NCBI RefSeq assembly: GCF_041146795.1
Contig: NC_135177.1
Coordinates: 2,201,560 to 2,265,559 of the forward strand
Direction of reading: 5' to 3'
Source of the DNA: Maylandia zebra
Taxonomy: Eukaryota; Chordata; Actinopteri; Cichliformes; Cichlidae
Length of the DNA stretch: 64,000 nucleotides
The notes under the pieces were generated by a model. That model searched no databases. It was not told where the DNA came from and saw only the letters and a program-made list of their open reading frames with translations. The translations under genes were made by a program, and so were the position numbers. Below are positions 39,079-64,000 of the stretch, in pieces (the first letter of the stretch is position 1; every line of letters starts with the position of its first letter).

Positions 39079-41640
39079 TGAATAGAATAGAATTCAACTT
39101 TATTGTCATTGCACATGCACAGGTACAGGGCAACGAAATGCAGTTTGCATCCATCCAGAAGTGCTTTAGTGATATAGATATATTACAATATATATTAGCA
39201 ATAATATAGATATGTGAGTATATTACAGAAATGGGTCTATTATGGTATGTTATAATGTACACGGTATGAAGTATGTTGTGAATATTCTATAACTATAAGT
39301 ATGTACAGGCTGTAGTGAGTACAAGCTATGTACAGGCTATGAACAGGATATAAATATGAAAAACTATACAGAATATGAAATAAATAACTTTACAGAATCT
39401 GGGATATACAGCTATACAGAAATGGGAACTATGCAAGTTGTAAACAGTTGTAGGATTAAAAATTATCGAATGTACAGAATGATTATTTACACAGAGCTAT
39501 ACAGTAGTGCAGTTAAGATAAGTGAGGGTGTAGATAGTTTCTACAGAGGCTATATAAAGTGCTAGTGGTTGTGAGTGGTGGTTCACTCCATGTTATTATT
39601 GTGTGTTTGAGGGTACAGTTGTCCATTGTGGGTGTGTGTATGTTCAGTCCATGAGTTTAACGTGGGTCAGATGTCAGGAGGCAGAGTTCAGGAGTCTGAC
39701 AGCTGTGGGGAAGAAGCTGTTCCGGTACCTGGTGGTCTTAGTCCGGAGGCTCCTGTGGCGCCTCCCAGAGGGCAGGAGGGTGAAGAGTCCATGTGATGGG
39801 TGACTGGGGTCTTTGATGATTTTCCCAGCCCTTTTCAGACACCGCTTCCTGTAGATGTCTTTTATGGCAGGAAGTGGTGCTCCGGCGATGCGCTGGGCAG
39901 TTTTCACGACCCTCTGCAACGCCTTCCGGTCCGAGGCAGAGCAGTTCCCGTACCAGACTGTTATACAGTTGGTCAGGATGCTCTCGATGGTGCAGCGATA
40001 GAAGTTCACCAGGATGTCTGAGGACAGGTGGTTCTTCCTCAGAGTCCTCAAGAAGAAGAGGCGCTGGTGAGCCTTCTTGACCAGCTTGGAGCAGTTGGTC
40101 GTCCAGGTGAGATCCTCGGAGATGTGGACTCCCAGGAACTTGAAGCTGCTCACACGCTCCACAGCCGTCCCCTTAATGTGGATGGGTGGATGTGGGTCAG
40201 CATTCCTCCTGTAGTCCACGATGAGCTCCTTGGTCTTCTCGGTGTTAAGCAGCAGGTTGTTTCTGTCGCACCACTCAGCCAGACGATCCACCTCCTCCCT
40301 GTAGGCGGCCTCATCGTTGTCACTGATGAGGCCAATCACCGTGGTGTCATCTGCAAACTTAATGATGGTGTTGGAACCATCAGCAGGTCTGCAGTCGTGG
40401 GTGAAGAGGGAGTAGAGGAAAGGGCTCATCACACAGCCTTGTGGTACACCGGTGTTCATTGTGATGGTAGATGAGCAGCGGTTATCCAGCCGGACATGTT
40501 GGGGGCGGTTGGTCAGGAAGTCCAGTAACCATTTGCAGATGAGGGAACTGATACCCAGGTCTGTCAGTTTCCTGATGAGTTGTCAGGGGTGGATTGTATT
40601 GAATGCTGAACTGAAGTCTATAAACAGCATTCTGGCGTAGGTGTTGTTGTTGTCCAGGTGTGAGACGACAGAGTGCAGTGCGATGGAGACTGCATCCTCT
40701 GTGCTCCTGTTCCGGCGGTATGCGAATTGGTGGGGGTCCAGGGTGGGGGGGAGACAGGATTTGAAGTGTGCTAGGACCAGTCGCTCTAAGCACTTAGTGA
40801 TGATGGGGGTGAGTGCTACTGGGCGGTAATCATTGAGGCAAGATGGGTTGGAGTTTTTGGGTATCGGGACGATGGAGGTGGATTTGAAGCAGGCCGGTAC
40901 CACAGCGTGGGCCAAGGACAGATTGAATATGTCTGTGAGCACTCCTGCAAGCTCCCCAGAACACGCTCTGAGAACACGCCCGGGGATGCCATCAGGGCCT
41001 GCAGCCTTGTGGACATTGATCCTGCTCAGCACCGCTCCTACATCGGTGGGGGAGAGAGTCAGAGGTTGGTGGTCTGGCGTCACGTCTGCTTTGGTTGTGG
41101 TTGTGGGGTTCCCTCGCTCAAAACGAGCATAAAAGTTGTTGAGCTCGTTGAGGAAGGAGACATCAGAGGATGCGGGGGAGGGTTTGGTGGTCCTGTAGTC
41201 TGTAATGGTCTGGAGTCCTTGCCACATGCGTCGGGGGTTGGAGTTGGAGAAGTGTTCTTCTACCTTCTTTTTGTAATGGCGTTTGGCTTTTTTGATGCCC
41301 TTCTTTAGATTAGCCCTGGCTGTGCTGTAGGCGTGTGCATCTCCTGACCTAAAGGCGGTGTTGCGGGCCTTCAGGAGGAGACGAACATCCCGGTTCATCC
41401 AAGGCTTCTGGTTGGGGTACATGGTGATCCGTTTCTGGGTGGTGACACTGTCTGTGGTTTTGGAGATGTAATCCAGTACAGATGAGGCGTACTGGTCCAG
41501 GTCTGTGTGGGTGAACATATTCCAGTCTGTGTTTTTAAATCTGTCCTGGAGCACTGCGTCTGTCCCCTCTGGCCACACTTTAATTGTCCTCACAGCAGGT
41601 TTCACACGTTGGATGAGTGGTGAATACCGAGGTGTGCTTC
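39079..41640 (-). mobile_element. Rex1/Babar-like LINE, 5'-truncated, RT region nearly intact
   Basis: The 3' end lies at low coordinates (AATAGAATTCAACTTTATTGTCATTGC at about 39083-39109), then the RT gene on the minus strand to about 41605 and diverged upstream sequence to about 41640. The RT frame has one stop. No endonuclease domain is visible, as expected for a 5'-truncated copy. Confidence 0.85.
39674..41605 (-). pseudogene. Rex1-like reverse transcriptase with a single in-frame stop
   Basis: One continuous frame of about 643 codons is broken only by TGA at 40583-40585, between SSAFNTIHP and a segment continuing LIRKLTDLGISS. The order of motifs is normal: [96 protein letters not shown], the catalytic IIKFADDTTVIGLI, LLNTEKTKELIVDYRR, FKFLGVHI and C-terminal PSGRRHRSLRTKTTRYRNSF. 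The state suggests a fairly recent insertion. The enzyme normally primes reverse transcription at the nicked target. Confidence 0.88.
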
Positions 41641-41859
41641 CTCCTTTTCCCGAATTTAAAGAACTGGTCGCGCTTCGTGACTATCAAAATTTTAAATGAA
41701 TGTCTTCAAATGTGGATCTCATGTTTCTCAGTGTTAGGTATTTTAGTACCATGGGAGCATTTACTGGATATTGTTTTATAGTGACATTATGCAGGAAAAC
41801 TCTGTCATTCAATAAGGCCCCTTTGTTTTAGTTATTTTTCTCTTTGACCCAAGAATTGA

Positions 41860-47341: not shown

Positions 47342-47436
47342 AGTAGTTGTCAAACAGCTAACAGATCATCTGCAGAGGCTTATTTGAAGAGTTTCAGTCA
47401 GGTTTCAGAGCTCATCACAGCACAGAAACAGCTTTA

Positions 47437-48306
47437 GTGAAGGTTACAAATGATCTTCTTATGGCCTCTGACAGTGGACTCATCTCTGTGCTTGTCCTGC
47501 TAGACCTCAGTGCAGCGTTCGATACTGTCGACCATAATATCCTATTAGAGCGATTAGAACATGCTGTAGGTATTACAGGTACTGCACTGCAGTGGTTTGT
47601 ATCATATCTATCTAATAGACTCCAGTTTGTGCATTTAAATGGAGAGTCCTCTTCACACACTGAGGTTAATTATGGAGTTCCACAGGGTTCAGTGCTAGGA
47701 CCAATTCTGTTTACATTATACATGCTTCCCTTAGGCAGCATCATTAGAAGACATAGCATACATTTACACTGCTATGCAGATGACACCCAGCTCTATCTGT
47801 CCATGAAGCCAGATAACACACACCAATTAGTTAAACTGCAGGAATGTCTTAAAGACATAAAGACCTGGATGGCCGCTAACTTTCTGCTTCTTAATTCAGA
47901 TCAAACTGAGGTTATTGTACTCGGCCCTGAAAAGCTTAGAAATATGGTATCTAAGCAGATTCTTACTCTGGATGACATTACCTTGGCCTCCAGTAACACT
48001 GTGAGGAACCTTGGAGTCATTTTTGACCAGGACATGTCCTTCAACGCACATATTAAACAAATATGTAAGACTGCGTTCTTCCATTTGTGCAACATCTCTA
48101 AAGTTAGAAATATCCTGTCTCAGAGTGATGCTGAAAAACTAGTTCATGCATTTATTACTTCCAGGCTGGACGACTGTAATTCATTATTATCAGGAAGTCC
48201 TAAAAACTCCCTGAAAAGCCTTCAGCTGATCCAAAATGCTGCAGCAAGAGTCCTGACAGGGACTAGAAAGAGAGAGCAGATTTCTCCTGTTTTGGCTTCC
48301 TGTTAA
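47437..48306 (+). pseudogene. L2-like LINE reverse transcriptase, C-terminal half
   Basis: A 289-codon frame covering RT palm motifs: [35 protein letters not shown] and the thumb segment [11 protein letters not shown], ending where the frame shifts into the C-terminal extension. It lacks the endonuclease and RT fingers, which are separated from it by the solo LTR. YADD catalytic residues are intact. Confidence 0.75.
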
Positions 48307-48705: not shown

Positions 48706-49170
48706 AATGGACGATCTGATATCCTCGTGTTGGCGTTGTTCCCACATCATCATAATTAATGTTGTTCCAGGGTCCACATTACAAGTAACCAATCACCTTC
48801 TTGTGACGTCATACTTTTGCGACTTCGAAAAATACCCGCCTTAAAAAAACAAATGTTCTTCGAGAAACCGCCTTTTGTCCGCCGATCCAGCAATTTCAAT
48901 TCCTCTCAAGATACTTTTCTTTAATAAACGGTAAGCATAATACATATGTTTTCCTTGAAATGGATAGCTGTTTGTTTGCTAGTGATAGGCTACTTGTGAA
49001 CCAGTGTTCTCCAGACAGAGAATTGCGTGTCAATGTATTATGATTTATTATGAAAGTACAGGTGAATATAGCTGTCATAACAATGTCAGGCAAAATTGCA
49101 GTAGCTTCCCTGATCATTTTACAAACATAAGTCAAGAGAATTTGAACTAAAAGGCCTAACGTAGAATTTG
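48706..49170 (+). repeat. block B, copy 1 (outer flank of MULE array)
   Basis: This block matches 57022-57444 in the same orientation: GACGATCTGAT...CCTCGTGT, TTTAATAAACGGTAAGCAT, CTGTTTGTTTGCTAG, GATAGGCTACTTG and AGGCAAAATTGCAGTAGCTT. Both copies lie directly before a 25-bp array of the same polarity. AAACG followed by GTAAGC would make a good splice donor, so the block may hold a promoter and non-coding first exon. Copy 1 has about 140 bases (48740-48880) not found in copy 2. Confidence 0.6.
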
Positions 49171-49267
49171 TCCCAGGGACATCGTGTAAATGTTGTCCCT
49201 GGGACATCGTGTAAATGTTGTCCCTGGGACATCGTGTAAATGTTGTCCCTGGGACATCGTTTAAATG
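49171..49267 (+). repeat. 25-bp tandem array, about 4 units (left end of MULE copy 1)
   Basis: Units of the type GTCCCTGGGACATCGTGTAA plus ATGTT. Each contains the perfect palindrome GTCCC-T-GGGAC. The polarity matches 57445-58135 and is opposite to 56833-57016 and 63884-64000, as expected for terminal inverted arrays. Confidence 0.9.
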
Positions 49268-49298
49268 TCTGGATGATCTAATTGAAACTTTTTTTCAG

Positions 49299-51575
49299 AT
49301 TTTTCCACCGCCTGAAATACCAGTTTTTATCTGGCTACAAGAATAGGCGTCTGGATGATCTGATTGAAGTGCTCCTAGGGAAGGCCGACGACTACTTCTC
49401 AGTCATAAAAAGCCTGCAAGATGTGGGCCGCATGAAAAACAGGTTTGCTGACACCTTGTCTCAAGTTTCAGACTCTGCTTCAAGACTGATGGAAAGTGGT
49501 TGGGCTCTTAAAATTACAGTCAAGAACAGCCATGGAGTTAATGCATATCAAGTCCCATCTGAGTCTAGAGAAGACATGGTGTATGATGTCTGCCCTGTTG
49601 AGTCCTACTGCAACTGTACATATGGCTTACGAGGACTTCTTTGCAAGCATCTAGTGTTACTTGCAAAATTAGCAGAGGTTGACAATGACATCTACCCAAA
49701 CATGGAAACAGACATTTCTACCTTGGCAAGTAGTGGCCACTGGTAGTGGCCACACAGTGGCCCACCACCATCATCAAGTTTGCTGACGACACCGTCGTGG
49801 TGGGCCTGATCTCTGATAACAACGAGACGGCCTACCTGAAGGAGATTAGGAATCTGGAGAACTGGTGCCAGAGGAACAACCTCCTTCTAAACGTCAGTAA
49901 GACAAAGGAGCTGATAGTGGACTTCAGCACTAAGCAGGAGAGGAACTACCAGACCCCCGTCATCAACGAGTGCCCAGTGGAGAGAGTGGACAGCTTCAAA
50001 TACCTCGGAGTTCACATCACGCAGGACCTGTCATGGTCCTGTCACATCAACACCGTGGTGAAAAAGGCCCGACAGCGTCTCTACCACCTCAGACGCTTGA
50101 GAGACTTCCAACTGCCCTCCAAGGTGCTCAGGAACTTTTACTCGTGCACCATAGAGAGCATCCTGGCGGGAAACATCTTAACCTGGTTCGGGAACAGCAC
50201 CATGCAGGACAGACGAGCTCTACAGAGGGTTGTGCGGTCAGCTGAGCGCACCATCCGCTCCGAGCTCCCTGACCTGCACTCAATCTACAGCAGGCGGTGC
50301 TGGACCAAGGCCAGGAAGATCGTGAAGGACCTCAGCCATCCCAACAACAGACTGTTCTCTCTGCTGAGGTCAGGAAAGCGATTCCACTCCCTGAAGACCA
50401 ACACAGAGAGACTGAGGAGGAGCTTCTTCCCGCAGGCGATACGGTCTCTCAATCACACCACCACACAGTACTGACCCACACATATGGTTCTTACACACAC
50501 ACTGGACTTTCTGGACTTTGGTTTTGCACAACACTGGTCACTATATTCTTCATTTCCAGTTAATACTTGTACAGCTGCTGTTATTGTGTATATATTTATT
50601 TATATTTCTTCATACATTCTTATATAGTTCTATATTGTGTATTGTGTATTTTGTTGTACAGTTATTTTATTTTCAACTTTAATTTATATATTTATCTTTA
50701 TCTTATTCTTCCCAGTTAAATTTACCCTTCATTCTAATTTGTGTTGTACAGTTATTTCATTTTTAACCTTAATTTATATTTTATTCCTTCCTAGTTAAAT
50801 TTACCCTTTTTAATTTTTCATATTTATTTCCTATCTTATTCATAGCCTTTTCCTTTTTTGTTCTCTTTAGGTCACGAGCAGTTGTCCAAGCATTTCACTA
50901 CATATCGTACTGTGTATGACTGTGTACGTGACAAATAAAAAATTTGAATTTGAATTTGAAGAATTGCAGTGAAAGAAAGGCATTACTTTGTACACTGTGA
51001 GGACTTGAAAGTGATAAAAATGCCAAGTTTGTTTGGAAATCTGTGGTTTTTTGCATCGGCTGAAACACTTCAGTGCACTTGTTGTACGTTCTCTCACTAT
51101 AACACATGTGCTTGCCTGAAGGTGGCTTGTAGCCATTTTAAACAAATGAAAAACTCTCTGAAAAGTCCTCTATCAACTTTGGATGACACTCCTGTAGTTG
51201 AAAGCACAGACAAAAAATGCACAGAAGGTGCAGTTGGAAAACTAAATGCTGTTTTAGACACAGTTAAACAGTGGGCATTCATTCCAGAGGGCATTACTGC
51301 AATGATAGATGAACTGCATACAAATGTCTTAAAAACAAAACAAGTAGGCAAAAGTATATGCCAGTACGAAATAAAGACGACAGATAATGCACGCAAAATT
51401 AGGCCATTGCATTCTAGCAAGAAACGTTCGGCCAGCATCGACATTCCAACAGTCTGAAAATGAATGTGAACAGTCGATAACCACTGAAAGAGAGACATCC
51501 TCTGGAGAAAATGAAAACCTTTTGGAATACAAAACAAAAAAGAGAAGAGTTAAAGCTAAGTATATGCACAAGTAG
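49299..51575 (+). pseudogene. MULE transposase C-terminal part with SWIM zinc fingers, split by a LINE
   Basis: An exon begins at 49299 after TTTTTTTCAG and reads FHRLKYQFLSGYKNRRLDDL, then GWALKITVKNSHGVN and CPVESYCNCTYGLRGLLCKH, a SWIM zinc finger (Cys-x-Cys-x8-Cys-x-His), the usual C-terminal module of Mutator transposases. A LINE (49746-50960) interrupts it. The frame resumes at about 50960 with RHYFVHCEDLKVIKMPSLFG and a second Cys/His cluster (QCTCCTFSHYNTCACLKVAC then SHF). After a frameshift near 51425 it continues to a basic tail KTKKRRVKAKYMHK and stop at 51575; AATAAA follows at 51810. The catalytic core is missing, with the array lying just upstream. Confidence 0.7.
49746..50960 (+). 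mobile_element. Rex1-like LINE insertion 1 in MULE copy 1
   Basis: Starts within the RT catalytic box (TIIKFADDTVVVGLISDN) and runs through NNLLLNVSKTKELIVDFS, FKYLGVHITQDLSW and the C-terminal SGKRFHSLKTNTERLRRSFF to a stop at 50474. A long AT-rich 3' UTR follows, ending in repeats of TTTGAA at 50940-50960. Severely 5'-truncated; the retained 240-codon frame is open. Confidence 0.85.
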
Positions 51576-51825
51576 ACTTTTGTGTGACATTTCAAAGGGA
51601 CTGCATCCATTACTTCTGTTTATTGAAACTAAAGCTGTCTTAACTTTCTGCCAAGGAACAGATGAAAAGAAATTGTTTGCTCTCTCAAGCAGTTGTTATT
51701 TATGTGTGTTATTCATTACTTTGGCTTGGTTGCTGTTTTTGATACAAACTCATCTGTGCCCATTGTAATATTTTCATATGTTACTATTTTTATATTGCTA
51801 TGTATTATAAATAAAGGATTAAATC

Positions 51826-52052
51826 ACAAATCAAATCAAATCACTTTTATTGTCACATCACATGTGCAGGTACATTGGTACAGCACATGTGAGTGAAATT
51901 CTTGTGTGCGAGCTTCACAAGCAACAGAGTTGTGCAAAATACAATAATGTAAACAAGCAAAATACAAGAATGGCTACATCTGAAACTAATAAATATATGT
52001 ACAATATATAATAGTATATGCATTTCTGGATGTGTATACCAAATATTTTTCT

Positions 52053-52104
<52 letters not shown>

Positions 52105-53721
52105 ACATATTTTACAAATTAAATAGAGTAAACAATAAATAAAATATATAAAAATATACAGAGTGAGACATGTGCAAAACAGTGGCATTACTGTACAGTA
52201 TGGAGTGCATAATGTTAAAGTTCCAGTAGTGAAGCTGAGGTGTCTATGACGTGTTCTGCAGTCTGATGGCCTGATGGAAGAAGCTGTCTCTCAGTCTGCT
52301 GGTACGGGACCGGATGCTGCAGAACCTCCTTCCTGATGGAAGCAGTCTGAACAGTTTATGGCTGGGGTGACTGGAGTCCTTGATGATCCTCCCCGCTTTC
52401 CTCAGGCAGCGCTTCCTGTAGATGTCTTGGAGGGAGGGAAGCTCACCTCCAATTATCCGTTCAGAGCACCGCACTACTCGCTGGAGAGCTTTGCAGTTGT
52501 AGGCGGTGCTGTTGCCATACCAGGTGGTGATGCATCCAGTGAGGATGCTCTCAATGGCACAGTGATAGAAGGTCCTGAGGATGCGGGGGCTCATGCCGAA
52601 TCTTTTCAGTCTCCTGAGAAAGAAGAGGCGCTGCTGCGCCTTCTTCACTGTTTTGTTTGTGTGTACTGACCACGTAAGATCCTCAGCCAGGTGTACGCCA
52701 AGGAAACAGAAGCTGCTCACTCTCTCCACAGCAGCGCCGTTGATGGTGATGGGGGTGTGTACTTCTCTGCACCTCCGGAAGTCCACTATCAACTCCTTTG
52801 TCTTTGCGACGTTGAGGGTGAGATGGTTGTCTTGACACCAGTGGGTCAGGGCGCTGACCTCCTCCCTGTAAGCCCTCTCATCACCGTTGGTGATAAGACC
52901 CACCACTGTAGTGTCGTCCGCAAACTTCACAATGATGTTGGAGTTGTTAGTGGCTGTGCAGTCGTAGGTGTAGAGTGAGTACAGGAGAGGGCTCAGTACA
53001 CACCCCTGTGGAGCACCAGTGTTCAGTGTGATGGGGGATGAGGTGATGCTGCCCAGTCTGACCACCTGGCGTCTGTCAGACAGGAAGCTAAGGATCCAGC
53101 TGCAGAGGGAGCTGCTCAGTCCTAGATCCTGCAGTTTCCTGTCCAGCTTCGAGGGAACGATGGTATTGAATGCTGAGCTGTAATCTACAAACAGCATTCT
53201 CACATACGTGTCTCTCTTCTCCAGGTGTGACAGGGCAGTGTGTAGTGTCAGGGCTATGGCATCATCAGTGGACCTGTTGTGGCGGTATGCGAACTGTAGA
53301 GGGTCCAGTGAGTCGGGTAGTGCAGAGCAGATGAAGTCCCTGACCAGCTTCTCGAAGCATTTGCTTACGATGGGGGTCAGGGCTACAGGTCGCCAGTCGT
53401 TCAATGAGAAGATGGTGGAGGATTTGGGTACAGGGACGATGGTGGCCATTTTGAAGCAGGCTGGGACTACAGACAGAGAGAGGGAAAGGTTGAAGATGTG
53501 TGTGAACACTCCAGCCAGCTGAGCCGCGCATGACTTGAGGACGCGGCCGGGAATCCCGTCCGGACCAGTAGCTTTGCGTGCGTTCACCTTCCTGAAGCAC
53601 CTCCGCACATCCTCCTCAGACACAGTGTGCGCACTGACGTCATCCGCGGTGCGCACACTGTCCGGTCTCATGGTGTTCGCTGTGTCGAATCTAGCGTAGA
53701 ATACGTTTAGATCCTCACACA
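51826..53721 (-). mobile_element. Rex1-like LINE insertion 2 in MULE copy 1
   Basis: The 3' tail on the low side (repeats of AAATC, then ACTTTTATTGTCACATCACA) is followed by a (GT)n tract in its 3' UTR and an intact RT frame to the 5' truncation at about 53721. It sits in what would be the last intron of the second MULE gene. On its far side that gene's terminal exon is not found. Confidence 0.85.
52055..52102 (+). repeat. (GT)24 microsatellite
   Basis: Uninterrupted GT dinucleotides inside the 3' UTR of the minus-strand LINE; expected to be length-polymorphic. Confidence 0.95.
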
Positions 53722-53767
53722 AATACGGGGAAATGACAAATAATACCAAAAAAGATACAACTTTCAT
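52244..53767 (-). CDS. Rex1-like reverse transcriptase, open, N-terminally fused to flanking MULE sequence
   Basis: A 507-codon frame whose last 490 or so codons are [90 protein letters not shown], catalytic IVKFADDTTVVGLI, LTLNVAKTKELIVDFRR, FCFLGVHLAEDLTW and C-terminal PSGRRFCSIRSRTSRLRDSF. The first residues (MKVVSFLVLFVISPYL) come from the intron of the MULE second gene, since the same bases occur at 61200-61247. The ATG is therefore accidental. No stop or frameshift, so this is a young, 5'-truncated LINE lacking endonuclease; unlikely to be expressed as drawn. Confidence 0.8.
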   Translation of the reverse strand: MKVVSFLVLFVISPYLCEDLNVFYARFDTANTMRPDSVRTADDVSAHTVSEEDVRRCFRKVNARKATGPDGIPGRVLKSCAAQLAGVFTHIFNLSLSLSVVPACFKMATIVPVPKSSTIFSLNDWRPVALTPIVSKCFEKLVRDFICSALPDSLDPLQFAYRHNRSTDDAIALTLHTALSHLEKRDTYVRMLFVDYSSAFNTIVPSKLDRKLQDLGLSSSLCSWILSFLSDRRQVVRLGSITSSPITLNTGAPQGCVLSPLLYSLYTYDCTATNNSNIIVKFADDTTVVGLITNGDERAYREEVSALTHWCQDNHLTLNVAKTKELIVDFRRCREVHTPITINGAAVERVSSFCFLGVHLAEDLTWSVHTNKTVKKAQQRLFFLRRLKRFGMSPRILRTFYHCAIESILTGCITTWYGNSTAYNCKALQRVVRCSERIIGGELPSLQDIYRKRCLRKAGRIIKDSSHPSHKLFRLLPSGRRFCSIRSRTSRLRDSFFHQAIRLQNTS

Positions 53768-53785
53768 ATTGTTTTACTAACTTAC

Positions 53786-56400
53786 TTTGTCATATCAGCA
53801 CTTGAATGGTCGATGCCTTTACAGACCATGTCTCATGTGACATCGCAGGCCAATCTTCCGGCAAACCCGAGGGCTAGCTCCCCAGCCTCCTCTTCACTCA
53901 GAACACTAAACACTGTTACTTTAGTTTTGGCCTTCTTAGGCCTGTCAAGAATCATTGTGGGCAGTTTGGCTTTGCGGCCCTAAAAAAGAAAAAGTGCAAA
54001 CACCAAAAGAGCAGAGAGAGACACACACGCACAAACAAAGTTAAATGCTTTTGTTTACATGGTGTAATTGTGTATATGTTGCAGCAAATGCACAATTTCC
54101 AGCCACATTGTCACTTCATTGATACGAGTAACCCGGATTTATTTCAGGTGACATCAAAATCACGAAATGTATACCTACCCCAATCAAACCTCTGAAAACA
54201 TGAACTGACATGTTCTCTGCGTTGATTCTGCGCTTGATCTCGTCTTCTGTTATTGTGTAGGTTTTCTTTTTTGAGCTTGGTACAGATAAGCGACCATGCA
54301 CTCTGTAAACTGTACTAGTTCCTTCTGAATCAGTTTGGAATTCTGTATCTGCATCGATCCTGTCAACATCAGCAGCAGCAGCATTATCTGTACTCAGACT
54401 TGTGCCGTATACTTTCTTTTTCTTTGTCTTCAGTCTGTGTACCTTCATCTCTTTCCGTCTGTGTACCTTCATCTCTTTCAGTCTGTGTACCTTCATCTCT
54501 TTCCGTCTGTGTACCTTCATCTCTTTCAGTCTGTGTACCTTCATCTCTTTCAGTCTGTGTACCTTCATCTCTTTCAGTCTGTGTACCTTCATCTCTTTCA
54601 GTCTGTGTGCCTTCATCTCTTTCAGTCTGTGTACCTTCATCTCTTTCAGTCTGTGTGCCTTCATCTCTTTCAGTCTGTGTACCTTCATCTCTTTCAGTCT
54701 GTGTACCTTCATCTCTTTCAGTCTGTGTACCTTCATCTCTTTCAGTCTGTGTACCTTCATCTCTTTCAGTCTGTGTGCCTTCATCTCTTTCAGTCTGTGT
54801 ACCTTCATCTCTGACTGTCAGTCCTCCTATCTCACTGTTACTTGTCGGTTTGCTGCAGATGTTCTCTCCCTTAGGAACTTTTCCTTTGTCATTCGCTGCC
54901 TGATGCTTTCCCTGATGACATTCTTCACTGGCTACTTCTATTGCTCCTCCTGTATAGTCACCTACTATGCTGCACAACTCCTTTCCCTCTGCTGTGCTGC
55001 ACTGTGCTGTTACATAACGAAGAATGATATAAACAGCACTATATCAATTTAATTGTGAAGAGAAATCCCCACAATACGACACAGTTATGTCTAAAATAGT
55101 TTTGTGTAAAAACTGGATCTTGAAACGTCCACTTTAATTACACAGTCCTGGTGTGCAAAGGCAAAATTACGAAATTTTTTTCACTTTAAACATTTTTGGA
55201 CATTGTTTAGTTATATTGTGACTTACTCTCACAGAAGATACAGATGCCACAAACAGACTTTGAACAACATGTGCTTGTATGCACCACATTTCTGGCACTG
55301 CACCTGTGAATTAAAAAAAAGAAAAAAAAGAAGAAGAAATAAACAAACAAAAAACAAATGAACAAAGTCCATTAAATAAACAATCTATATGGCTAAGGAC
55401 ATGTCATAGTGTACCCGGTCTTTGGCTGCAATCACACACCAGCACTGACTGCACTTCCTAGTTCGATCTGCAAAATATAATTTGTTTAAGTACAAGTTAC
55501 ATTTTCCAATGTTAGAGAAAAAGAAGGCGGCTAATTTTATCTTTACCTATTGAGGAAAATAAGTAGTGGCAAAGTCGGGACCTGAGCTTTGTGATTTCAG
55601 TGTTGTACTCCTCCACTTGTGTTTTACCCTCAATGAGAGATTGGGCAAACTAATAATTGACGAAGAAGAAAAAAAAAAAAAAAAAGAACAAAAAGAATTA
55701 GATTAACAAAGAAATGTTTGTTTGTTTTTACCCCCCCCCCCCCCCCCCCGAGAAAAAAAAAAAAAAACAGAGCAACCAAAGCAAAGCATTACTGCTGAAA
55801 TGGTTCAATCTACAAAAAAAATTGAGATTTTACCATCCTGCCTCTAAGGCTTTAAAAACTGAATAGGCAAAAATGTAAACATTACTTATATAGGTTAAAG
55901 CTATAGTTTTCAGTACCATTATGACATGCACTCCACATGAGTTCCCATCCTGTTGATGTGGGTGGCTCACATGTGACAAGGTCCACTCTCCAGCGCAGCC
56001 TCTTGCTGAAGCAAATGAGCTGAGAGATCGCAGTTATTACAAATAAAAAGCATATAGAGAAATCAATAACCACGTTCGGTAATGATTTCAATTAAATTAA
56101 ATATGTTATGTTAAATATGTTAATTAATTACCTCCAGTTTTTCAACACCGCACTTTTTCTGACCTCCGACTCGCCAAATGAATTCATATAGACTATGGTC
56201 CTCTAGGGTATGTCACAAAATTGTTTTGTAAAAAGATGGATATGGTAGGCTTGGGCCTTGAGCTTTCCTAATGAGGGACACTGAAAAGTATCATGCACTA
56301 GAGAGAGTGCAAAATCTGTGCAACTTACAAACAAGGTCCAGTGGCTGCCGTTTTCCAGACAGGCTCCAATCAATTTCTCATACATCTGAAAGATGTTTTT
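53786..56400 (-). pseudogene. second MULE gene (AP-2-like), copy 1, last exon missing
   Basis: Same exon series as the plus-strand gene at 58568-61433, read on the minus strand: first recognised exon 56329-56400, Cys-rich exons around 55200-55500, the RDEGTQTE repeat exon (54429-54812, 16 units) and an exon at 53786-53979 bounded by AG and GTAAGT. The terminal exon (QTLLKIQ... in copy 2) should follow beyond 53721 but has been replaced by a LINE. Without it the predicted AP-2-like domain loses its last helix region, so this copy is probably non-functional. Confidence 0.6.
54429..54812 (-). repeat. 24-bp coding minisatellite, 16 units of RDEGTQTE
   Basis: Sixteen consecutive 24-bp units differing at one or two positions (GTACAC/GCACAC; CTGAAA/CGGAAA). 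Because 24 is a multiple of three, the repeat is open in several frames on both strands, which creates long false frames here. The intended frame is set by the upstream exon (ENICSKPTSNSEIGGLTV). Confidence 0.9.
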
Positions 56401-56832
56401 CTGGAAATAAAAAGAATGTGACAAGTATGTTTTTCTGTCAAGAATGACACTGCAAAACTGCAAAAGCTTGTCAGGTGAGACTTGTAATTAATTCTGCAGA
56501 TACACAAACATATAGAAAGTGTCATTTTTGGTTTACATTAATTAATTTCTATAGTGTGTACAAAACAAATCAAGACCACAGACTCAACACGCACCACTCA
56601 ATTTTTGGTGTTCTTTATCAGTTGGCCAAGACAGAAATGTTTTAATCTGTGTGCATTGCTTTTGAACAAGTCTTTACACAGAAAAGGTTTCAGAAAGGTG
56701 TTTTTCAGGTTCTTCTGACAAGGCTTCAATTTTGGAAAATGCTGTTTGTTTATAGTGGCAACTTATAAACCCTTTGTGATAAGAACATAGTTACCACAGT
56801 CCAAGTCATACCTTCAAAAAGTATGCACTTTG

Positions 56833-57016
56833 TTACACGATGTCCCAGGAACGACATTTACACGATGTCCCAGGAACGACATTTACGCAATGTCCCAGGA
56901 ACGACATTTACACGATGTCCCAGGGACGACATTTACGCGATGTCCCAGGAACGACATTTACGCGATGTCCCAGGAACGACATTTACACGATGGCCCAGGA
57001 ACGACATTTACGCGAT
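56833..57016 (-). repeat. 25-bp tandem array, about 7 units (right end of MULE copy 1)
   Basis: Units of the form CGATGTCCCAGGAACGACAT plus TTACA/G, the reverse complement of the 49171 and 57445 arrays. Many units carry GGAAC in place of GGGAC, breaking the palindrome. The same variant units occur at the proximal end of the 57445 array (58040-58135), so the two arrays share their inner ends. Confidence 0.9.
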
Positions 57017-57021
57017 GGAAC

Positions 57022-57444
57022 GGGACGATCTGATTTCCTCGTGTCAGCCTGTCCGCCGAATTTGAAGTCAATTTAGGATACTTTCCTTTAATAAACGGTA
57101 AGCATTATACATATGTTCCTCACTTGGCTTGCTGTTTGTTTGCTAGCGATAGGCTACTTGACGACAGCATTAGCTAACCAGTGTTCTCTAGACCAGCGTT
57201 CCCCAACTTTTTTGGTGTTTCGTGGCCCGGGGGTTGGGTCAGGCAAAATTGCAGTAGCTTCCCTGATCATTTTACAAACATAAGTGAAGAGAATCTGGAC
57301 TAAAAGGCCTAGACTTATGGTTGTGTGCTGAATCTATGAATCAAACTATCACCTGGAAACATAATTAACTGGTCCATAGCTGTGAAACTGGACATGAGTT
57401 CTTGATTCTATGGAGATTAACAGTAATCCAGAAATTTACAAATT
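57022..57444 (+). repeat. block B, copy 2
   Basis: Direct-orientation copy of 48706-49170, lying between the right array of MULE copy 1 and the left array of copy 2. It keeps the TTTAATAAACGGTAAGCAT donor-like site and AGGCAAAATTGCAGTAGCTT. About 45 bases of hAT-MITE-like DNA (57193-57240) replace a stretch seen in copy 1. Because both copies precede arrays in the same polarity, the block may be the true outer end of the transposon or a recurrent insertion flank. Confidence 0.55.
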
Positions 57445-58135
57445 TGTCCTGGTACATCGCGTAAATGTTGTCCCAGGGACATCATGTAGAATTTGCCCTG
57501 GGACATCGTGTAGATGTTGTCCCTGGGACATCGTGTAAATGTTGTCCCTGGGACATCGTGTAAATGTTGTCCCTGGGACATCATGTAGAATTTGCCCTGG
57601 GACATCGTGTAGATGTTGTCCCTGGGACATCGTGTAAATGTTGTCCCTGGGACATCGTGTAAATGTTGTCCCTGGGACATCGTGTAGATGTTGTCCCTGG
57701 GACATCGTGTAAATGTTGTCCCTGGGACATTGTGTAGAATTTGCCCTGGGACATCATGTAGATGTTGTCCCTGGGACATCGTGTAAATGTTGTCCCTGGG
57801 ACATCATGTAGAATTTGCCCTGGGACATCGTGTAGATGTTGTCCCTGGGACATCGTGTAAATGTTGTCCCTGGGACATCGTTTAAATGTTGTCCCTGGGA
57901 CATCGTGTAATTGTTGTCCCTGGGACATCGTGTAAATGTTGTCCCTGGGACATTGTGTAATTGTTGTCCCTGGGACATCGTGTAGATGTTGTCCCTGGGA
58001 CATCGTGTAGATGTTGTCCCTGGGACATCGCGTAAATGTCGTCCCTGGGACATCGTGTAAATGTCGTTCCTGGGACATTGCGTAAATGTCGTTCCTGGGA
58101 CATCGTGTAAATGTCGTTCCTGGGACATCGTGTAA
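57445..58135 (+). repeat. 25-bp tandem array, about 27 units (left end of MULE copy 2)
   Basis: Units GTCCCTGGGACATCGTGTAA plus ATGTT, with variants (GTAGATGTT; a 24-bp GTAGAATTTGCCCTGGGACATC type recurring every few units, giving a higher-order pattern at 57480-57835). The inner end (58040-58135) has the GTTCCTGGGAC variant seen in the copy 1 right array. The frames of over 100 codons in this array are artefacts of the repeat. Confidence 0.92.
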
Positions 58136-58567
58136 CAAAGTGCATACTTTTTGAAGGTATGACTTGGACTGTGGTAACTATGTTCTTATCACAAAGGGTT
58201 TATAAGTTGCCACTATAAACAAACAGCATTTTCCAAAATTGAAGCCTTGTCAGAAGAACCTGAAAAATACCTTTCTGAAACCTTTTCTGTGTAAAGACTT
58301 GCTCAAAAGCAATGCACACAGATTAAAACATTTCTGTCTTGGCCAACTGATAAAGAACACCAAAAATTGAGTGGTGCGTGTTGAGTCTGTGGTCTTGATT
58401 TGTTTTGTACACACTATAGAAATTAATTAATGTAAACCAAAAATGACACTTTCTATATGTTTGTGTATCTGCAGAATTAATCACAAGTCTCACCTGACAA
58501 GCTTTTGCAGTTTTGCAGTGTCATTCTTGACAGAAAAACATACTTGTCACATTCTTTTTATTTCCAG

Positions 58568-61433
58568 AAAAACATCTTTCAGATGTATGAGAAATTGATT
58601 GGAGCCTGTCTGGAAAACGGCAGCCACTGGACCTTGTTTGTAAGTTGCACAGATTTTGCACTCTCTCTAGTGCATGATACTTTTCAGTGTCCCTCATTAG
58701 GAAAGCTCAAGGCCCAAGCCTACCATATCCATCTTTTTACAAAACAGTTTTGTGACATACCCTAGAGGACCATAGTCTATATGAATTCATTTGGCGAGTC
58801 GGAGGTCAGAAAAAGTGCGGTGTTGAAAAACTGGAGGTAATTAATTAACATATTTAACATAACATATTTAATTTAATTGAAATCATTACCGAACGTGGTT
58901 ATTGATTTCTCTATATGCTTTTTATTTGTAATAACTGCGATCTCTCAGCTCATTTGCTTCAGCAAGAGGCTGCGCTGGAGAGTGGACCTTGTCACATGTG
59001 AGCCACCCACATCAACAGGATGGGAACTCATGTGGAGTGCATGTCATAATGGTACTGAAAACTATAGCTTTAACCTATATAAGTAATGTTTACATTTTTG
59101 CCTATTCAGTTTTTAAAGCCTTAGAGGCAGGATGGTAAAATCTCAATTTTTTTTGTAGATTGAACCATTTCAGCAGTAATGCTTTGCTTTGGTTGCTCTG
59201 TTTTTTTTTTTTTTTTTCCTCGGGGGGGTTAAAAACAAACAAACATTTCTTTGTTAATCTAATTCTTTTTGTTCTTTTTTTTTTTTTTTTTCCTCGGGGG
59301 GGGGGGTAAAAACAAACAAACGTTTCTTTGTTAATCTAATTCTTTTTGTTCTTTTTTTTTTTTTTTTTTTTTCTTCGTCAATTATTAGTTTGCCCAATCT
59401 CTCATTGAGGGTAAAACACAAGTGGAGGAGTACAACACTGAAATCACAAAGCTCAGGTCCCGACTTTGCCACTACTTATTTTCCTCAATAGGTAAAGATA
59501 AAATTAGCCGCCTTCTTTTTCTCTAACATTGGAAAATGTAACTTGTACTTAAACAAATTATATTTTGCAGATCGAACTAGGAAGTGCAGTCAGTGCTGGT
59601 GTGTGATTGCAGCCAAAGACCGGGTACACTATGACATGTCCTTAGCCATATAGATTGTTTATTTAATGGACTTTGTTCATTTGTTTTTTGTTTGTTTATT
59701 TCTTCTTCTTTTTTTTCTTTTTTTTAATTCACAGGTGCAGTGCCAGAAATGTGGTGCATACAAGCACATGTTGTTCAAAGTCTGTTTGTGGCATCTGTAT
59801 CTTCTGTGAGAGTAAGTCACAATATAACTAAACAATGTCCAAAAATGTTTAAAGTGAAAAAAATTTCGTAATTTTGCCTTTGCACACCCGGACTGTGTAA
59901 TTAAAGTGGACGTTTCAAGATCCAGTTTTTACACAAAACTATTTTAGACATAACTGTGTCGTATTGTGGGGATTTCCCAACACAATTAAATTGATATAGT
60001 GCTGTTTATATCATTCTTCGTTATGTAACAGCACAGTGCAGCACAGCAGAGGGAAAGGAGTTGTGCAGCATAGTAGGTGGCTATACAGGAGGAGCAATAG
60101 AAGTAGCCAGTGAAGAATGTCATCAGGGAAAGCATCAGGCAGCGAATGACAAAGGAAAAGTTCCTAAGGGAGAGAACATCTGCAGCAAACCGACAAGTAA
60201 CAGTGAGATAGGAGGACTGACAGTCAGAGATGAAGGCACACAGACTGAAAGAGATGAAGGTACACAGACTGAAAGAGATGAAGGCACACAGACTGAAAGA
60301 GATGAAGGTACACAGACTGAAAGAGATGAAGGCACACAGACTGAAAGAGATGAAGGTACACAGACTGAAAGAGATGAAGGTACACAGACTGAAAGAGATG
60401 AAGGCACACAGACTGAAAGAGATGAAGGTACACAGACTGAAAGAGATGAAGGTACACAGACGGAAAGAGATGAAGGTACACAGACTGAAAGAGATGAAGG
60501 TACACAGACTGAAAGAGATGAAGGTACACAGACTGAAGACAAAGAAAAAGAAAGTATACGGCACAAGTCTGAGTACAGATAATGCTGCTGCTGCTGATGT
60601 TGACAGGATCGATGCAGATGCAGAATTCCAAACTGATTCAGAAGGAACTAGTACAGTTTACAGAGTGCATGGTCGCTTATCTGTACCAAGCTCAAAAAAG
60701 AAAACCTACACAATAACAGAAGACGAGATCAAGCGCAGAATCAACGCAGAGAACATGTCAGTTCATGTTTTCAGAGGTTTGATTGGGGTAGGTATACATT
60801 TCGTGATTTTGATGTCACCTGAAATAAATCCGGGTTACTCGTATCAATGAAGTGACAATGTGGCTGGAAATTGTGCATTTGCTGCAACATATACACAATT
60901 ACACCATGTAAACAAAAGCATTTAACTTTGTGCGCGTGTGTGTGTCTCTCTCTGCTCTTTTGGTGTTTGCACTTTTTCTTTTTTAGGGCCGTAAAGCCAA
61001 ACTGCCCGCAATGATTCTTGACAGGCCTAAGAAGGCCAAAACTAAAGTAACAGTGTTTAGTGTTCTGAGTGAAGAGGAGGCTGGGGAGCTAGCCCTCGGG
61101 TTTGCCGGAAGATTGGCCTGCGATGTCACAACAGACATGGTCTGTAAAGGCATCGACCATTCAAGTGCTGATATGACAAAGTAAGTTAGTAAAACAATAT
61201 GAAAGTTGTATCTTTTTTGGTATTATTTGTCATTTCCCCGTATTTGGGTTATTGGTGTAACATTGTTAATCTTACTTTCTAATAACAGACAGACTCTTCT
61301 CAAAATCCAACACAACCTTAAACATGAGCTGACTGATTCCTCAACCTTCAGTTTGCTGGCACACACCTTTGGCCCCGCTGCACTGGATTCTGTCATTTCA
61401 TTCCTGTGTGAAAAACTTGATCTTGTTTCTTAA
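58568..61433 (+). CDS. second MULE gene: Cys-rich, RDEGTQTE repeats, TFAP2-like C-terminus
   Basis: Recognised exons: 58568-58639 (NIFQMYEKLIGACLENG), 58768-58836 (SLYEFIWRVGGQKKCG), about 58949-59060 (FSKRLRWRVDLVTCEPPTST), about 59390-59496 (SLIEGKTQVEEYNTEITKL), about 59572-59622 (KCSQCWCVIAAKDR), about 59736-59810 (a Cys cluster TCCSKSVCGICIFCES), 60032-60787 with 13 RDEGTQTE units (60226-60537), 60987-61180 and 61289-61433 (stop at 61431). The last three exons carry EDEIKRRINAENMSVHVFRG, VFSVLSEEEAGELALGFAGR, then QTLLKIQHNLKHELTD and FSLLAHTFGPAALDSVISFL. Order and spacing resemble the TFAP2 helix-span-helix domain (ALLTSLVEGEAVHLARDFGY; LLATKQICKEFTDLL; FNLISHGFGSPAV). A frame change at about 60540-60590 and one unresolved junction (59622/59736) mean the model is incomplete; upstream exons may exist (an open stretch at 58230-58370). 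Confidence 0.6.
59205..59370. repeat. duplicated poly-T/poly-G segment
   Basis: A unit of about 85 bp (poly-T, CCTCGGGGGG, AAAAACAAACAAAC, TTTCTTTGTTAATCTAATTC) occurs twice in tandem, whereas the corresponding place in the left arm (55655-55770) has one. It lies in an intron of the second MULE gene. The homopolymers here and at 55658-55770 could also be prone to assembly error. Confidence 0.7.
60226..60537 (+). repeat. 24-bp coding minisatellite, 13 units of RDEGTQTE
   Basis: The counterpart of 54429-54812 in the right arm, with three units fewer. It encodes an acidic, Thr/Gln-rich linker between the Cys-rich and AP-2-like parts. TQTE resembles the short linear motif bound by dynein light chain LC8 (TQT core), so it could form a multivalent LC8-binding rod. 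Confidence 0.88.
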
Positions 61434-62309
61434 ATAATGAAACCTTTTGTTTGTTCTGTAAATCAGAATCTTGAAAATTGTTCATTGTTGTTCTAAGTTT
61501 GTGTTAACTATTTGGCAAAAATGATTGGTTCCTAATCCAAACAGCATAATGACTGTTCTAACACATATCTTAAAAATGCTACAAAGAAAGAAAATTATCA
61601 CATATGTTTCAATATGAATGTAATTGTGTCACACTCGGTTTGTAGTAGCTTTCCTGTTTTATTTTGAGTTTTGGTATGTTTACACTGTTATTTTTATTTC
61701 CCGTGTGTTCATCTTCCCTTATTAGTTTTACTGTATTTAATTAGTCTGATTTAATAACTTATAATTATTGGAGAGAGAGACAGAGGAGCAGCTGTACAAA
61801 AAGCATAAAAGAAAGCTGACGTCCAAAAATAACTTTGTCACTCACTGGACAAGAGGACCTGTGCATTACAGAAATCAACCAGGCAAACATATTTTTAAAT
61901 GTCAAAAAGAGCTTTGGGAAGCAGCCACCAGAAGATGAGTGCACTGTGGTCTTAAATGGATGGACATAGTCACTCAACATTTTATCCCTTTATATTCATT
62001 AACCTGAGTAGGTGAATATCACAATGAGGCAAATCATAACAACAGGACCCTGTTGTAAAAATGTGTTTCAGGTGCATCTTAGACAACGTGAAAAGAAAAC
62101 AATGTGGTTTACCTGCAAGACATGGTACCAGCATAGAAGGATAGCTGACTCTGGAAAAACCTTCTGCAAAGCATTTATTTCCGCAAAGTCTTTGTCAACC
62201 ATAAATGCTCTACAGAAAAAAAGAAAACACTAAATGAGATTAAACAGTATGAAAATGTTTTTGCTATCTCAAAGCACCACTTCAATGCCAAATTAAACAT
62301 TTCAACTCA
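61434..62309. other. MULE copy 2 interior between the two genes
   Basis: Non-coding DNA downstream of the second gene's stop codon. No transposase exon with SWIM motif is visible on either strand. The stretch 61620-61760 looks like an unrelated repeat end (T-rich, CACACTCGG...). The short open frames here have no domain. Confidence 0.4.
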
Positions 62310-62640
62310 CAAGTAGATATATCTTTTATTGCTCAATGTTCCATTTGCCAGAACTGAACTGGGAAAGAGGGCTTTTACTTATGCTGCCCCTTTCACATGG
62401 AACATGATGCAAAAAGACTGGAAGATAGCAGATCTTATTTCATTAAATGCTTTTAAGTCCAGATTGAGAGAGCCAGAGAAAAATGTTTTTAAAATGTAAT
62501 TGTTATTTATAATATGTATGTAACTTTGTAATTTCAACGTGTTGTCGCCTCTTGGCCAGGACTCCCTTGCAAAAGAGGTTTTTAATCTCAATGGGACTTT
62601 TCCTGGTTAAATAAAGGTTAATAATAATAAATATAAAATA
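62310..62640 (+). mobile_element. LINE 3' fragment (L2-like) inserted in MULE copy 2
   Basis: Plus-strand text AGAACTGAACTGGGAAAGAG and LISLNAFKSRLREP is the C-terminus of an L2-type LINE protein. It is followed by a 3' UTR with GCCTCTTGGCCAGGACTCCC, AATCTCAATGGGACTTTTCC and a short ATTAATAATAATAA tail. Only about 330 bp is present, and it lies where the transposase gene would continue. Confidence 0.7.
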
Positions 62641-62789
62641 CTGCATACAGCCTATAGGAATAGCTTTAACAACTGGAAAGGAAAGTTTTTTGCAGCCCAT
62701 GCTGCAGCTATAGCATTAGATTCTGGCATGTTATAACTTTTTTGAAAAGGAATTATTTCAAAATTAATAGCTGTCAATGTATTATTTAC

Positions 62790-63696
62790 CTCGGGGAAGT
62801 TGGGAAATGCTCACAAACTATTCCAAGAACAGTTTCCAGGGTTTTCTGACTTTCGTTGCTGACAATAGCATAGGCCACAGGGACTCCATGCCCATGATCA
62901 TCTCTTACAACAAGTGTGAATAAGGGAAATGAATACTGGTTAACGCAGTGCGTGGTGTCAACAAATACTAACTGTTTTGCATAGTTCTCCATGTTTGATT
63001 TCATTACAGGTGTCTGCAAAACAATCATTAGTTCTTGGTCAGATGTGTATGGTTGATAGAAGAGAACATGTTCTTGATGTTTTCCATTAAGTAAGGTATG
63101 TACACATTGACTGTCTCCACAGTTAAAGTGCTTCTTCCTCATCATGCAGGTTCTAACACTGTCAATGTCACGTGGTGTGACAAAATGCTCTCTGTTGTGA
63201 AGATCTCTGTGTCCATGTTCTTTGGCCCATTTATGACATTCAGTTAGTAGATGGCTGGCTTAGTTCCAAGGGAAAGCAGTTCCTCAATCTTCCTCCTCAA
63301 ATCACTGGAAATATTGTTGAAATGTGCGTCTTTTGGGTCCGAAGGATCATGCCCATCATGCTTATCATATGTACGCTGCACGATGACTGTGTGGTCTTTC
63401 CAACATTTGAGTACTTTAAATGAAACATAGGCCTTACAGCCCACTGCTCTGTAGCTGTTTCGACTTTTTTCCCCAGCTCTGATGCAGTTGAATTTGTAAT
63501 AGTCTCTTTTCCTGTCTTTACCTGAGGCAACATTTAAACATTTATAATGTCCATGAAGGGTTAATGAGTTCAATTTTTCTAACACAACACTGAATGGGTC
63601 CTCCTGGCATTGTGACACATGCACACAAAGTTGTGTGTCTTTTCCAGTTCTTTTTTTTTCGTCATTCAGAACACTTCTTCTAATTATGTCGTCCAT
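62790..63696 (-). pseudogene. MULE transposase, N-terminal module and start of catalytic core
   Basis: From ATG at 63694-63696 the frame reads MDDIIRRSVLNDEKKRTGKD and a Cys/His module (NCIRAGEKSRNSYRAVGCKA ... VQRTYDKHDGHDP) like the FLYWCH/FAR1-type DNA-binding heads of MULEs. It stops at 63244 through a one-base frame change near 63258. The next frame (to 62790) continues TECHKWAKEHGHRDLHNRE, then the MULE core QLVFVDTTHCVNQYSFPLF and VRDDHGHGVPVAYAIVSNES; the Asp in FVDTT would be the first catalytic residue. It ends at a good donor (CGAG before GTAAAT), so later exons with the other catalytic residues and SWIM finger are expected, but I cannot find them before the second gene. Probably inactive here. 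Confidence 0.75.
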
Positions 63697-63883
63697 TTCT
63701 GGTGGAAAAATAACGAAGGTTTAATTAGTCAATATTCATTAATTCATTTTAACTTGTTTTGGTTTTTTTTGCAATACAATGTAAATATTAAATATAATAT
63801 TAAAAAATATATATATATAAAATAATATAAAACAAACAGGGGCTAAAAGAAGCTAAACTTTCATATGGTATGTCTCTGGCAAC

Positions 63884-64000
63884 TTTAACATGATGTCCCA
63901 GGGACAACATCTACACGATGTCCCAGGGCAACTTCTACATGATGTTCCAGGGACAACATTTACGCGATGTCCCAGGGACGACATTTACGCGATGTCCCAG
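63884..64000 (-). repeat. 25-bp tandem array (right end of MULE copy 2, truncated by the window)
   Basis: At least four units (ACACGATGTCCCAGGGCAAC; GCGATGTCCCAGGGACGACA), inverted relative to the 57445 array. It continues to the last base of the window, so its length and the outer boundary of the transposon are unknown. Confidence 0.88.

Follow-up and report, generated by a model that had tools for sequence, protein, structure and literature searches.

A recently active two-gene Mutator-like transposon with foldback-type ends in the cichlid Maylandia zebra

Whether Mutator-like elements (MULEs) are truly absent from vertebrates was asked by a survey of 2019, which reported limited evidence for them in chordates and judged the vertebrate MULE entries of Repbase to be mis-identified (PMC6446971; this and the other papers cited here are represented by excerpts). 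MULEs are described as rare in animals (PMC8277862). On the other hand, repeat annotations give counts of both MULE-MuDR and MULE-NOF for teleosts (PMC4746887), and 437 human pieces are annotated as MULE-MuDR (PMC9004415). The question is raised again by a stretch of 64,000 nucleotides (C11:2201560-2265559, hereafter the window) in the 962-Mb genome of Maylandia zebra, which contains parts of a MULE transposase and of a second gene (gene 2) between inverted arrays of 25-bp units. These parts belong to a recently active MULE, a DNA transposon of teleosts that has two genes between foldback-type ends and whose complete copies measure about 11.2 kb.

The initial annotation, made from the window alone, proposed two inverted copies of such an element, bounded by the arrays and holding complementary parts of the transposase, and predicted fuller parent copies elsewhere. 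The arrays lie where it placed them. They are not the ends of the element, as outer inverted-repeat segments lie beyond them: copy 1 starts at 48709 (GGACGATCTGAT...) and the gene-2 end of copy 2 lies at 57023. The transposase parts are complementary as proposed, with exons 1 and 2 in copy 2 and exon 5 in copy 1; exons 1-4 were not found in copy 1, exons 3-5 were not found in copy 2, and exons 3 and 4 were thus found in neither. The DNA of gene-2 exons 4-12 is present in the window when both copies are pooled.

The MULE domain was identified at 24 genomic places, the window among them, and 10 kb around 20 of these places, plus flanks, was fetched for the analysis. The longest matches to copy L025 are 97.7-99.6% identical in 17 of the 19 other fetched copies. 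L009 represents an older subfamily (93.5-96.9% identity to L025 across four blocks), and the long match of L028 to L025 is absent among the matches listed. L009 also has about 2.8 kb in three stretches absent from L025. The left-side element end was located in 14 of the 20 copies. The right side was viewed in eight, of which L014, L020 and L024 reach the terminus, while L011, L016, L018, L019 and L028 pass into other sequence before it. All three copies with both termini read carry perfect target duplications, one of 10 bp and two of 9 bp (L014, TGTAACAAG; L020, AGGTTTCAC, 9 bp; L024, GTCGCATTCC), in agreement with the 8-11 bp expected in the initial annotation. L014 measures 11,248 bp, its 766-bp ends being 97% alike with arrays of 8 and 12 units; in L020, which measures 11,177 bp, the arrays have 21 and 8 units and one end carries a deletion. 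Each long terminal inverted repeat combines an outer segment with an array in which the number of 25-bp units varies. At least 42 places match a 241-base stretch of the end (best 40 of 567 candidates scored). The left flanks are identical within the pairs L019/L020 (C12:31.05 and 31.09 Mb) and L021/L022 (C15:3.03 and 3.09 Mb), which are probably segmental duplications and not separate insertions; copy counts therefore overstate insertion events.

Linkage of the arrays and the two genes outside the window had been set beforehand as a test of the proposed element, which passes it. Genome-wide, 33 clusters yielded at least 27 gene-2 loci and at least 26 transposase-domain loci, at least 24 of them with both genes, the window included; these counts are lower bounds, since the gene-2 search scored the best 85 of 250 candidates. 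A transposase match was thus present at 24 of 27 gene-2 loci and gene 2 at 24 of 26 transposase-domain loci, and every one of the 20 fetched transposase copies was accompanied by at least two gene-2 exons (range 2 to 12). The gene-2 loci without a transposase match are at C21:5.34 Mb, where both ends are present, and at C4:3.99 Mb and C16:3.87 Mb, with no scored ends. One of the two transposase-domain loci without gene 2 lies at a contig end; the other is probably a host gene of ZSWIM type.

The same pair of genes recurs in other fishes. Outside the cichlids, seven named gene-2 proteins bearing C48 or AP-2 were found, in Astyanax, Pimephales, Labeo, Triplophysa, Misgurnus, Brachyhypopomus and Thunnus; P0053 (Labeo, partial), P0054 and the short matches P0045-P0047 were left out of this count. 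Six of the seven are from species that also yielded a transposase, and in three of these six (Triplophysa, Misgurnus and Astyanax) both proteins are on contigs of equal size, the Triplophysa pair being consecutively numbered (LOC130407814, LOC130407815). A chance association of array, transposase and gene 2 as repeats without relation to each other would fit a window that holds a rearranged, interrupted pair without target duplications, but is hardly credible in view of the joint occurrence at 24 of 27 gene-2 loci, the ends in both orientations at at least 14 of the 33 clusters and the perfect duplications of the three complete copies. The proposed plan, a foldback-ended MULE with a pair of convergent genes, is confirmed.

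The element belongs to the MULE superfamily. Its transposase consists of five exons encoding 776 amino acids and is open in three of the 20 fetched copies (L014, L015 and L020); of the remainder, 13 have an early stop or frameshift, three a partial exon and one an absent exon. L020 also has an open gene 2 and its perfect duplication, which bears out the prediction of fuller parent copies. Exon 1 of copy 2 matches the ZSWIM1-3 RNaseH-like family (PF21056, 2e-15) and MULE (PF10551, 7.7e-9), both above cut-off, and PF10551 is matched by the homologues P0002 (7.5e-18) and P0016 (6.7e-17). The DDE surroundings were recognised by eye in the open copies (FVDTTH, FMVDKD with CxxH, and ETNNVIE). The MULE assignment of the initial annotation is upheld by the profile; for its SWIM finger, a SWIM-like CxCx(n)CxH is visible by eye in exon 5 of copy 1 and the Pfam match is weak (E 0.019, below cut-off), and P0002 and P0016 gave no SWIM match at E<=0.01. 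For a PHD finger, Pfam likewise gave no match, neither with the exons of the transposase (E<=1) nor with the two homologues P0002 and P0016 (E<=0.01). An interpretation of the L025 exon 5 frameshifts as tiny introns was rejected, as they are 8-bp and 2-bp deletions absent from other copies. The ratio of nonsynonymous to synonymous change per site (pN/pS) in exons 1-4 is 0.30-0.35 for L009 against L020, L014 or L015, with 9-10 synonymous and 12-14 other changes.

Transposase homologues (25 in number) include those of Alosa (64% identity), Astyanax (51% and 33%), Misgurnus (48%), Triplophysa (46%) and hemichordates (32-37%). A tree of 18 rows, which took in 16 of the 25 homologues, groups Maylandia with Alosa and Engraulis with support of 97/96, subject to a long-branch warning and with Engraulis covering only 47% of the columns. 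This grouping is odd relative to the relationships of the hosts; with regard to horizontal transfer, identities of 64-68% prove nothing. PF21056 was found at 26 places of the Maylandia genome, one of which (C11:6386872) is a likely host gene. Vertebrate ZSWIM1 and ZSWIM3, which are host genes and not known to be mobile, have this family in common with the fish transposase (2e-15), and the common family is a lead to the origin of the vertebrate ZSWIM genes.

Gene 2, to which the initial annotation gave no name, lies on the strand opposite the transposase, convergent with it; its domains are Ulp1/C48 and AP-2. Spliced alignment of protein P0026 to L020, with only GT-AG introns permitted, gives 12 exons without a stop, with an upstream ATG in the same open frame; in L014 the gene is frameshifted near its start. 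The protein ends in an AP-2 domain, and its other parts are one resembling Ulp1/C48, one rich in Cys and a linker that repeats GTQTERDE. The linker contains a coding 24-bp minisatellite (54429-54812 and 60226-60537 in the window), with 2 to 16 units where Tandem Repeats Finder (TRF) reports it. Both domains are over the Pfam cut-off in the cichlid P0026 (TF_AP-2 1.1e-7, Peptidase_C48 4.1e-7) and in Astyanax P0044 (2.4e-8 and 3.5e-17, respectively). Seven gene-2 proteins were scanned: AP-2 reaches or exceeds the cut-off in five of them (P0043 just at it), and C48 exceeds it in six, with P0043 below. A profile of five AP-2 parts matched AP-2 beta (4.8e-7) and AP-2 alpha (4.1e-6) in PDB as the sole matches at E<=1; a single-sequence PDB search with the AP-2 part gave nothing at 0.1. 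The VANC domains DUF1985 and DUF287 are absent from the seven proteins, which match only C48 and AP-2 (Pfam, E<=0.01). Inspection by eye of the C48 triad revealed that His and Cys are retained.

The 25-bp array unit holds a 13-bp palindrome, TGTCCCWGGGACA. It is intact in 215 of 285 units of the fetched ends and the window (174 with T and 41 with A), the units having been chosen by likeness to one template with no more than 7 changes and some of the copies being segmental duplicates. The number of units per end varies from 1 to 25; three copies in which no left end was located have 0. A palindrome of such length occurred in 747 of 100000 letter-shuffled units (0.7%). AP-2 beta binds GCCN3-5GGC (PMC9877354). 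The core of the array differs from this site by G to T in both half-sites, a match that is suggestive only.

A DNA-binding domain, a SUMO (small ubiquitin-like modifier)-protease-like domain and repeated palindromes are thus present in one element, and self-targeting is the simplest reading of this combination. The explanation that we favour overall, with a probability of roughly 0.6, is that of a recently active two-gene teleost MULE whose gene-2 protein targets the element itself and counters silencing; all of it beyond the existence and the joint travel of the two genes we infer. The transposase would cut and paste the element via its ends. The gene-2 protein would, with slightly better than even odds, be guided by its AP-2 domain to the element's own arrays with their palindromes. 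By analogy with plant systems, the array-bound Ulp1-like part may then remove SUMO from silencing complexes, or otherwise disturb them, so that the element stays expressed, a step that is tentative. The most specific version, in which the AP-2 domain, either derived from a host transcription factor or held in common with one, recruits a SUMO protease to the palindromic arrays and so strips the SUMO-dependent silencing machinery, as an independently assembled animal counterpart of the Ulp1-bearing VANC systems, is conceivable and rather unlikely as a whole.

Several observations weigh against self-targeting and a role of gene 2 in countering silencing. The array holds TCCN3GGA, with the half-site TCC and not GCC; neither L014 nor L020 has the strict AP-2 site GCCN3GGC, in the arrays or elsewhere, and the one GCCN4-5GGC site in each of these copies lies outside the arrays. 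The symmetric pattern [GT]CCN3GG[CA], found in 0.9% of shuffled units, was selected after the unit had been seen, and the palindrome could equally be a site of the transposase. AP-2 falls below the Pfam cut-off in P0051 and P0052, as does C48 in the window exon (E 0.14) and in a draft string (E 0.1). The other pN/pS pairs are uninformative (L010-L020 0.76, L027-L020 0.38, and L014-L015 0.00 with 1 change). Moreover, the presumed catalytic Asp is replaced by Asn in the cichlid gene 2 (YMNSFGE), being Asp in Thunnus and the otophysan relatives, and the predicted proteins P0030 and P0031 skip the protease core. These last two features would fit the decay of a passively captured passenger without a role for the element, as in Pack-MULEs, and capture of gene pieces is frequent in MULEs (PMC8277862). 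A gene 2 open over 12 exons in L020, the retention of AP-2 and C48 in most of the proteins scanned and the recurrence of the gene pair in other fishes make such a passenger improbable.

Gene 2 may alternatively be a transposition helper, its AP-2 domain binding the arrays so as to mark or pair the ends, or driving transcription from them, and its Ulp1-like part maturing or de-SUMOylating the transposase. The joint occurrence of the two genes at 24 of 27 loci and in other fishes, and the presence of arrays in both ends, where a helper should act, are what this alternative would lead one to expect. To our knowledge no MULE depends on a helper of this kind, which counts against it, as does the link of the Ulp1-bearing plant relatives to anti-silencing (PMC13317346), and we regard a helper as doubtful. 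The anti-silencing role, itself tentative, is preferred because of the parallels with plant VANC proteins. VANC proteins of VANDAL MULEs induce loss of methylation and have targets that are often arranged in tandem (PMC5735166). The Ulp1-bearing VANC genes recognise motifs in, and act on, their own family, and the role of Ulp1 there is given as unknown in the part of the paper available (PMC13317346).

The known systems share different features with the fish element. Plant KI-MULE/KIU VANDAL elements likewise combine a MULE transposase with a Ulp1 domain in reverse orientation; they differ in having plant hosts, and KI-MULE is a MULE without terminal inverted repeats (PMC2528002). VANDAL elements also resemble it in the tandem repeats targeted by VANC (PMC5735166), and the tandem peptide motifs of VANC are, in the excerpts available, reminiscent of the GTQTERDE repeats. 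In contrast to VANDAL, no VANC domain was found in the fish element, AP-2 is its DNA-binding part and its ends are long and of foldback type. Tm1 of root-knot nematodes has composite inverted repeats with variable tandem units and 9-bp duplications, but a 496-amino-acid transposase and units of about 14 bp; a term search of the available part of that paper, in which AP-2 was not a term, did not find Ulp (PMC3169594). FB4 of Drosophila is similar in its 9-10-bp duplications and ends of about 700 bp (PMC8277862). Rehavkus has a minisatellite near one end and a 9-bp duplication, and differs in the PHD finger of its transposase and in the position of the minisatellite before the 3' end (PMC6446971), whereas the fish element has a SWIM-like segment in the transposase and arrays at both ends.

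Maize MuDR is similar to the fish element in its two convergent genes, 9-bp duplication and long ends; however, mudrB is not known to be a Ulp1/AP-2 protein and MuDR is not known to have 25-bp arrays. No fish MULE with a second gene was found in the open-access literature among the matches listed, in a search in which AP-2 was not a term; the lack of an AP-2-bearing MULE in print is thus weakly tested. The combination of foldback ends, a MULE transposase and a Ulp1/AP-2 gene was not in the literature found and is new relative to open-access papers only, Repbase not having been compared. The presence of young copies in a cichlid, one with both genes open, and of relatives in other fishes bears on the question of MULE absence from vertebrates. 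If the proposed self-targeting is true, the association of Ulp1, DNA binding and tandem arrays, otherwise reported only from plant MULEs in the excerpts cited, would appear a second time.

The two copies of the window are both decayed and span 48709 to 65317, the final 1.3 kb lying beyond the window (Table 1). Within three long blocks (53717-57017 against 57951-61249) the copies pair as inverted repeats with 98% complementarity. Copy 1 is additionally broken by two non-LTR (long terminal repeat) retrotransposon pieces, and its gene-2-side outer end is missing at the array there.

Table 1. Parts of the two element copies in the window
Feature	Position	Strand
Outer inverted-repeat segment, copy 1, transposase side (GGACGATCTGATATCC...)	48709..49167	+
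25-bp array, copy 1, transposase side, 4 units	49168..49268	
Transposase exon 5, copy 1: SWIM-like segment, second Cys-rich segment, C-terminus; split by retrotransposon fragment	49306..51575	+
Non-LTR retrotransposon fragment within exon 5 of copy 1	49734..50474	+
Non-LTR retrotransposon reverse-transcriptase open reading frame (ORF), inserted in copy 1	52244..53773	-
Decayed gene 2, copy 1: peptide pieces 3-7 and 9-11 of 12 present, two with a stop	53784..56403	-
25-bp array, copy 1, gene-2 side	56833..57017	
Outer inverted-repeat segment, copy 2, gene-2 side, internally deleted	57023..57439	+
25-bp array, copy 2, gene-2 side, 28 units (TRF)	57440..58135	
Gene 2, copy 2: peptide pieces 3-7 and 9-12 of 12 present, one stop (piece 4)	58565..61433	+
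Gene 2, copy 2, content: Ulp1/C48-like part, Cys-rich part, linker repeats; linker end and AP-2 domain	60554-61433 (linker end and AP-2)	
Transposase exon 2, copy 2 (VDKD...LLCWYH)	62113..62208	-
Transposase exon 1, copy 2 (FVDTTH), frameshifted near 63250	62789..63696	-
25-bp array, copy 2, transposase side; runs to about 64779, element end at 65317, both past the window	63880..64000	

The pair in the window showed no target duplication. Nesting of copy 2 in an array of copy 1 was considered and rejected. The flanks of copy 2 (57022 and 65318 sides) and the outer flanks of the pair do not repeat, and the pair is therefore more likely to have arisen by rearrangement than by nested insertion. 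The pair is composite: both outer ends (48700/65318) are of the L009 type (GATATCC) and the inner end (57017-57023) is of the young type (GATTTCC). A match to Pfam ALKBH8_N is also present in both retrotransposon pieces of copy 1 (49734 and 52244). Further reverse-transcriptase ORFs of non-LTR retrotransposons are present at 47362-48306 (scanned) and 39674-41680 (by eye), and a 236-amino-acid open frame at 14299-15009 resembles, by eye, the C-terminus of a Tc1/mariner transposase.

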